Made by a program: the position numbers and the translations under genes. Positions 61,646-62,689 of a stretch of DNA of 64,000 nt are shown here, one piece after another. The notes beneath the pieces are model-generated. The model searched no databases. It had not been told where the DNA came from and saw nothing but the letters and a program-made list of their open reading frames with translations. Numbering within the stretch: position 1 is the first letter of the stretch; the number at the start of each line of letters is the position of its first letter. The DNA comes from Planctomycetaceae bacterium (lineage in GTDB: Bacteria > Planctomycetota > Planctomycetia > Planctomycetales > Planctomycetaceae). The stretch is taken from positions 186,001 through 250,000 of the forward strand of contig JANSXP010000002.1 of NCBI GenBank assembly GCA_024742875.1, given 5' to 3'.

Positions 61646-62689
61646 GTGAAGAACGCGTTTTTGACCACCATGCTGGCTCTCGTCGTGACTGGATGCTCAG
61701 CATTCGGTCAGGGGGGCCCGCGGCCTCAAAATCTGGGAGCCTCTGATCTGCCACTGGGCGAACCGGGCATCCACTGGTACACCCGCTGGGACACGGCCCA
61801 GGCCGAAGCCAAACGCAGCGGACGGCCCATCATGTTTGTGGCGGCCGCCACCCAGTGTCACGGTGTCTCGGGCGTCTTCTGACCTGGCTACACCGCTACG
61901 CAGAACGGTCTGTTCGCGTCCGCCGATTTTATCAAAGCCACACGAGACTTCGTTTGTGTCCGCATTGACTCCTACGAAAGTGAAGAACACCAGCAGTACG
62001 TCCGCACCTTCCTGGGCGGTCGCTTCGAAAACAGCGCCTTCTGCCTGCTGACTCCCGACGGCCAAAAATGGCTGACGAACGGAGGTCGAGGCCCGGAAAT
62101 GGTGCTGGGGCGTTTCGGGGCTGCCAGCCGCATGCGGGAATTTGCGGCCATTTACCCGGCGAAAGAATCAACCGCCCAGGCGCTCGTGCCTGATTTCTTC
62201 TCCCTGCGTCAGGCGCTGAATGTGGCCTCCGCCGATCAGCGTGTGCTGGTCGTGATTCATGGTTCTGACGACCAGACCAAACCGCTGCGGGAATCGCTGC
62301 AGGCCGTCTGCAACGATCCGTCCCTCATCGGGCGATTCCACTATGACTTCGAGAAAAGCCTGAAGGAGCAAAAGACCATCAGGGGACTGAAGGCCGCCGC
62401 CGGCATCGCCATTGTGCGATCGGATGAATTCGGGCTCAACGGTGACGTGATGGCACATCTTCCGCTGGACGCAGAACCTGCCACTATTAAACGCGCATTG
62501 CTGACTGCCAACAAAGAGTATGCCCGCACGACCGAACAAAAGGTCTACAGCAGCCACGTCGCCAAAGGCACGCAGCTGGGCGTGTATTTTGAAGGCAATG
62601 TCGAATACGGAGAAGACCGCGACGGCGATGGAGAAATTGATCACCGGGGCGGAAGCCGAGGGCAACGAAGCGGACAGCGCGGGCGCTAG
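61646..62689 (+). CDS. Thioredoxin-like lipoprotein with an in-frame UGA (candidate selenoprotein)
   Basis: 347 codons from GTG 61646 (AGAAAAGG 7 bases upstream). The signal peptide ends in a lipobox (LVVTGC). Residues 25-75 look like the start of a thioredoxin-type domain (IHWYTRWDTAQAEAKRSG, RPIMFVAAATQC). Codon 79 is TGA at 61880-61882 (context GVSGVF-UGA-PGYTATQ). The same frame then stays open for 268 codons with normal protein features (FVCVRIDSYESEEHQQYV, FCLLTPDGQKWL). A cysteine lies 8 residues before the UGA. Selenocysteine insertion, or a recent TGC/TGG to TGA change, are both possible. A weak stem (CAGA/TCTG) starts 18 bases after the UGA. A terminator follows. Confidence 0.75.
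61880..61882 (+). other. In-frame TGA codon, possible Sec site
   Basis: TGA followed by C, a context that favours readthrough, interrupts an otherwise open 347-codon frame. A small hairpin CAGA-ACGG-TCTG lies at 61901-61912, within the range where bacterial SECIS elements are found, but it is short and lacks clear conserved features. Confidence 0.5.

Follow-up and report, generated by a model that had tools for sequence, protein, structure and literature searches.

A reading frame of 347 codons in a 64,000-nt stretch of the genome of a Planctomycetaceae bacterium (the window; contig JANSXP010000002.1 of assembly GCA_024742875.1) is interrupted by a single TGA, which raises the question whether this codon terminates translation, is read as an ordinary amino acid or encodes Sec in a thioredoxin-like selenoprotein, as the preliminary description had proposed. 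Translation of the frame (61646..62689, + strand; GTG start assumed, TAG stop, full-length homologues available) showed the TGA at 61880..61882 (+), codon 79, as the sole interruption, with a C as the next base and a Cys 8 residues before (Cys71, 61856..61858, +), as had been described. Comparative sequence analysis identified TGA 79 almost certainly as a Sec codon, and the protein is very probably a genuine selenoprotein that represents a new variant, at family level, of the thioredoxin-like selenoproteins.

The putative signal peptide (61646..61696, +) ends with a lipobox-like VTGC, recognized by eye, so that the window protein may be a lipoprotein as suggested earlier; this does not extend to the family, since the corresponding Cys is absent from many relatives. 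Near the C-terminus a DRDGDGEID motif (62615..62641, +) was found by eye, which resembles a calcium loop. The stretch after the TGA, previously noted as protein-like, is under purifying selection: dN was 0.30–0.37 against a dS of 1.1–3.9 in comparisons of the window gene with the same-genus loci L018, L019, L037, L040 and L041, dS being undefined in one of the five pairs. The gene is preceded by a 3-hydroxyisobutyrate-dehydrogenase-type gene and followed, on the opposite strand, by a molybdopterin oxidoreductase gene. All four neighbour genes checked have TGA as the terminal stop, hence TGA is an ordinary stop in the host genome. Neither a conserved operon nor a conserved neighbour hinting at the substrate was found around 55 family loci, some of them sharing a genome: the gene itself, together with its antisense shadows, recurred most, followed by a group present in 10 loci of the Verrucomicrobiota side and then by smaller groups. 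The recurrent neighbours included what we take to be a DUF1501-like gene (7 loci) and a DUF1553-like gene (6 loci). A plasmid search at E 1e-3 gave no match.

A scan of a genome collection with peptide patterns omitting the Sec codon, which reach close relatives only, produced 19 loci from Planctomycetota and Verrucomicrobiota (one titled only 'Bacterium'), the two closest being from Fuerstiella sp. records with 64–65% identity. The kin search gave a match in 12 of 58 genomes, one being a weak match that lacks the motif, and 31 of 33 loci read at this stage had TGA at the aligned codon, the other two (L047 and L049) being weak matches. The profile search of the phylum matched 57 of 392 genomes, and 65 loci were then read: 55 family members covering the column, all with TGA, 4 fragments missing it, and 6 other thioredoxin-like proteins below 39 bits (five with TGC and one with TGA). 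In the class search, a match was present in 44 of 397 genomes, and the 47 loci included 43 with TGA, two full-length genes with TGT (L199 and L200) and one fragment missing the column; the two TGT genes overturned the reading that the family has no Cys homologue. Rejected as family members were L215 (35 bits, another thioredoxin) and, for scores below 39 bits or absence of the motif, the matches of genomes G048, G089, G100 and G250, the lesser matches of G283 and G337, and the loci L125–L133, L047 and L049, while the Sec column lies outside L104, L106, L107, L114 and L201, which entered no codon count. After removal of duplicates, the 131 rows were reduced to 118 distinct genes, including the window gene, with TGA at the Sec column in 116, TGT in 2 and Trp in none. 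The comparison with homologues that had been recommended therefore gave TGA or Cys, never Trp, and the recurrence of the same TGA in 116 distinct genes excludes a sequencing error.

An extra TGA was found in L061, L066 and L090 (G421) some 250–260 codons further on, near the gene end, and no extra TGA was seen on reading L068, which had been scored with two in the profile search. Two TGA copies were present in each of eight genomes (G050, G137, G174, G329, G364, G503, G511 and G724), some of the pairs coming from distant tree branches. Locus L201 (G741:C82), a near relative of the Cys gene L200 and like it from genus g371, comprised the C-terminal half only, with the N-terminal half absent from the stretch read, and is perhaps a decaying copy. 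In L103 (G108:C33) the halves lie in different frames with the TGA in the first one, pointing to a frameshift or an assembly error. An EF-hand-like insert of two D-x-[DN]-x-D/N-G-like loops, lying after the signal peptide and before the thioredoxin domain, was noticed by eye in L021, L023, L027 and L034 from Verrucomicrobiota and in L200. Apart from the family, two other Thioredoxin_7-type frames, L109 (G089:C55) and L112 (G100:C38), had an in-frame TGA (GGTUPAC and DSVUGVRC, respectively) and no hit in NCBIfam (E up to 0.01); they are candidate selenoproteins of other kinds.

The weak hairpin reported to begin 18 bases downstream of the T of the TGA was recovered at 61898..61919 (+) with an energy of -7.9 kcal/mol. 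It consists of a core stem (61903–61906 with 61912–61915, +), a GGUCU loop (61907–61911, +) and an outer stem (61898–61901 with 61916–61919, +). Calling it weak was fair: the energy of the lone sequence was unremarkable, being equally low in 31 of 200 shuffles of a 28-nt and in 95 of 200 shuffles of a 61-nt segment. A SECIS call from the folding energy of the window alone was not significant and was given up in favor of covariation and position tests. The significance of the hairpin comes from covariation across the relatives, not from its own energy. While its letters vary (GAAC-GGUCU-GUUC in the window, CAGG-AGUUU-CCUG, GUAC-CGUGA-GUAC and others among the relatives), 96.2% of the cells were paired in a set of 85 rows (78 distinct; kinship ignored), compared to a mean of 62.7% after shuffling and 34–52% in slid versions, and both sides had changed in 100 cells compared to a shuffled mean of 31.9. 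Two cruder measures were no different from shuffles (double-change pairs, 298/500; pair types, 117/500). Among all 4-bp placements within 51 nt, the core stem was the best one, with all four pairs possible in 91% of the 78 rows, and the next four best placements lie on the same hairpin axis. In 107 distinct 51-mers, all four pairs were retained in 98 and GU at loop positions 2–3 in 96. The SECIS check thus revealed a SECIS-like hairpin conserved via compensatory changes.

According to the 2026 catalogue (PMC13188914), a bacterial SECIS has a loop of 3–9 nt, a stem of at least 4 bp, a G within the first two loop positions, a spacing of 16–37 nt and an energy of -7.5 kcal/mol or lower. The window hairpin falls within this range, with its 5-nt GGUCU loop, 24 nt from UGA to loop and -7.9 kcal/mol. 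The core of the rule (stem and loop G) applied at the fixed place to 106 of the 116 TGA genes, leaving 10 that failed it, compared to 38 of 10,017 controls, which were in-frame placements within the same genes. An energy of -7.5 kcal/mol or lower was reached by 92 of the 116 TGA genes, with 24 folding above it, compared to 160 of 825 control windows; the best fold of L026 was a different hairpin. The loop GU and the closing pair are gone from both Cys genes, in which three of the four core pairs are still possible and which fold at -3.2 and -2.9 kcal/mol compared to a median of -10.75. A search of Rfam with 61860–61960 produced no match at E up to 1.

The preliminary description had seen no Sec machinery inside the window and recommended searching the genome. 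The host assembly (G000; 8.18 Mb, 168 contigs, 98.1% complete) encodes selA (485.5 bits, cut-off 267.9), selB (334.8 bits, cut-off 242.25), selD (256.3 bits, cut-off 125) and a tRNA-Sec (77.8 bits, cut-off 47) with the anticodon tca (UCA) according to ARAGORN. These above-cut-off genes are located on contigs C157, C46 and C22, while the window, in which ARAGORN found no tRNA gene over its 64 kb, belongs to C1. In the phylum set, selB was present in 51 of 53 family carriers and in 185 of 339 other genomes (Fisher p 1.5e-10, kinship among genomes being ignored in the test). The carriers exclude G048, G089, G100 and G250, which have other thioredoxins, and include G303, G378 and G389, whose pieces stop short of the Sec column; the two without a detected selB were the incomplete genomes G329 (83%) and G384 (90%). 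The kin set gave 10 of 11 carriers against 20 of 47 others (p 0.004), the exception being G021 (78% complete), and among the genomes of L018–L036 selB was found in 16 of 19, with those of L023, L026 and L034 as the misses. In two genomes of the window's genus (G001 and G004), selB was present with no match to the family gene, so the gene has been gained or lost within the genus and is not tied to the Sec machinery alone.

With the machinery, the hairpin and the Sec column all favorable, the readings without Sec can be weighed. The TGA could be a true stop, whether in a pseudogene, between two separate genes or owing to a sequencing error, and with a single internal stop and an in-frame ATG at 62099 a separate ORF of 196 residues is indeed permitted. 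This is extremely improbable, given that the TGA recurs in 116 distinct genes, that the sequence is conserved as coding both before and after it, that a single predicted thioredoxin domain spans it and that two relatives read through with Cys. Nearly as improbable is a decoding of UGA as Trp or as some other residue, by a changed code or by leaky readthrough. Other systems are known to read UGA as Trp; against it stand the four neighbour genes that stop at TGA, the sole alternative codon at the column being TGT (2 of 118), the SECIS and the association with selB.

The placement of the Sec in the protein was examined by structure prediction. The AlphaFold2 model (52 members; pLDDT 90.7, pTM 0.87) has a helix at 80–87 directly after Sec79 and suggests two thioredoxin domains, with Sec just ahead of helix 1, the usual place of the nucleophile. 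The predicted catalytic domain comprises residues ~44–169 (61775..62152, +), and the second one, residues ~187–295 (62204..62530, +), is without a conserved redox Cys. The thioredoxin fold with the nucleophile where helix 1 begins was predicted by AlphaFold2, and the Foldseek matches agree with it. The best PDB matches in Foldseek were PDI, QSOX1, ERdj5 and ERp44, and the P. furiosus PDO was one of 29 that reached E 0.001 or better (1.3e-5 to 8.8e-4; identity 8–14%), which had low TM-scores because the domains are placed differently. The PDIs, QSOX1, ERp44 and the P. furiosus PDO, all solved structures, share with the window protein the predicted tandem thioredoxin domains and differ from it in domain placement and by their low identity; to our knowledge, Sec is not part of them. 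Pfam Thioredoxin_7 (PF13899) matched the window protein below its gathering cut-off (21.3 bits against 27; E 2.9e-4) and reached E 0.1 or better in 48 of the 52 members (best E 1.9e-7).

An ungapped comparison of WUPGKQEMD in the relatives with WCQKCHEMD in the CxxC type of Thioredoxin_7 aligned Sec with the first Cys of CxxC, the second Cys being replaced by Lys or Tyr: the segment reads W-U-P-G-K in relatives, F-U-P-G-Y in the window protein and W-C-Q-K-C in L108. Codon 79 thus lies where the redox centre had been expected. The preliminary description had called a family-specific Sec position outside the CxxU pattern notable; the position itself is the usual redox centre, the peculiar features being the missing second Cys and an inserted loop with Cys71 ahead of helix 1. 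The planctomycete CxxC Thioredoxin_7 and DUF255 proteins (for example L108 and L110; aligned segments WCQKC and FVC) belong to the same fold family and differ by their CxxC, the absence of the Cys71 loop, another length and less than 39 bits to the family profile. Cys71 is present in 50 of 52 aligned members, being absent from L100 and L101. Cys104 (61955..61957, +), common to the family and its CxxC relatives, is present in all 52 members of alignment A4 and replaced by Ala in L213 and L214. As each of these is missing somewhere, the Sec column, with Cys in two genes only, is the only one among the conserved Cys columns that is kept throughout.

Taken as a whole, an exported two-domain thioredoxin-like selenoprotein with Sec79 as the nucleophile is, in our judgment, the probable explanation. 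The Sec codon, the SECIS, the machinery and the fold are supported by computation, while export, redox chemistry and the resolving step are, at best, slightly favored assumptions. The ribosome would insert Sec at UGA 79, delivered by SelB and tRNA-Sec, which would recognize the hairpin starting 18 nt past the U of UGA (loop GGUCU here, xGUxx in most relatives). Sec79 would stand in for the nucleophilic first Cys at the thioredoxin active site, where helix 1 begins. Outside the cytoplasm it may attack an oxidized substrate such as a disulfide or a peroxide, and in most members the bond would be resolved by Cys71, the candidate resolving Cys, or by a thiol from elsewhere. The second domain probably serves for binding, by analogy with the non-catalytic domains of PDI.

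There are two other ways to regard a genuine selenoprotein at this locus. Sec may act alone, as in a peroxidase or in binding of metals or metalloids, with no dithiol-disulfide chemistry, which would agree with the loss of the second Cys of CxxC and with a partner Cys not being kept throughout (Cys71 and Cys104 each failing in two loci). We hold this as a tentative second choice in view of the retention of Cys71 by 50 of 52 members and of the fold neighbours, which are disulfide isomerases and oxidases. It is unlikely, on the other hand, that the protein is a divergent member of a catalogued family, be it NF041199 as the most likely one, NF041382/NF041383, or a catalogue row lacking a motif or a model. 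The Trx7/PDZ (seleno)protein family NF041199 shares a Thioredoxin_7-type domain with Sec, provides the best NCBIfam likeness (residues 43–111) and gives hits in 37 of the 52 members (E up to 1, the best being 2.8e-4); the VPGUxxT families NF041383 and NF041382 match 10 and 7 of the 52 at the same threshold, are thioredoxin-like and, by motif, have Sec without a Cys three residues on, as in this family; and rows of the review table without a motif are not separable by motif. However, NF041199 is listed with a CxxU motif and a PDZ domain, while Pfam detected no PDZ in the window protein at E up to 1, and NF041199, the sole match of the window protein in NCBIfam (June 2026), scored 14.0 bits against a cut-off of 300. 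NF041382 and NF041383 had no window match at E up to 1; the motif of the family is G-x-[FW]-U-P-G-[YK], and in relatives the U comes two residues after a PG, with PGUxxT not seen. Over the 52 members, no NCBIfam family reached better than E 2.8e-4 and none came near its cut-off.

A selenoprotein of an apparently uncatalogued family, as judged from NCBIfam, Pfam, the table of PMC13188914 and literature searches, is the reading we prefer. The catalogue comprises 119 selenoprotein families and subfamilies, and no row of its table has the motif of this family, the rows without a motif not being comparable. Seven new families have been found through Sec/Cys pairs (PMC2398784), with no description matching this family in the accessible text of that paper. 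According to PMC12013277, there now seems to be no known selenoprotein without Cys homologues, a generalization with which the family agrees, barely. Selenoproteins of two out of three planctomycetes from a red alga, according to the portion of PMC4807772 that was available, have been reported, and a member of this family may be among them.

With the Sec column masked, a tree of 116 rows (quick method, midpoint root, without bootstrap) joined the two Cys rows in one clade (SH-aLRT 100), nested within sets of 8 rows (100) and 26 rows (96) that otherwise consist of Sec forms. This is a single change at the Sec column, and its direction is from Sec to Cys unless the root falls on that branch. Such a switch is rare in prokaryotes and documented mainly for FdhA and SelD, according to PMC13188914. 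The F-U-P-G-Y members, including the window protein, together with L091 (F-U-E-G-Y) occupied one side of a branch spanning both phyla. By a narrow preference, we regard the family as centred on planctomycetes and verrucomicrobia and extracytoplasmic, with Sec ancestral and nearly obligatory, a lone active-site selenol in [FW]-U-P-G-[YK], a fused non-catalytic thioredoxin domain and one lineage that went from Sec to Cys with decay of the SECIS.

The prokaryotic selenoproteome gains herewith a sizeable, apparently uncatalogued family, sampled by 118 distinct genes, and genes which ordinary annotation would split in two find an explanation. If Sec is indeed nearly obligatory in it, searches based on Sec/Cys pairs would tend to miss the family, because Cys versions hardly exist. 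With 116 Sec against 2 Cys forms, the family offers an unusually clear setting in which to ask why Sec is retained: the pair of Cys genes is nested among Sec relatives, so nature provides both enzyme types on a single scaffold for comparison, and the decay of the SECIS following the switch can be traced. For the planctomycetes, the family points to a selenium-dependent redox chemistry that would operate outside the cytoplasm.
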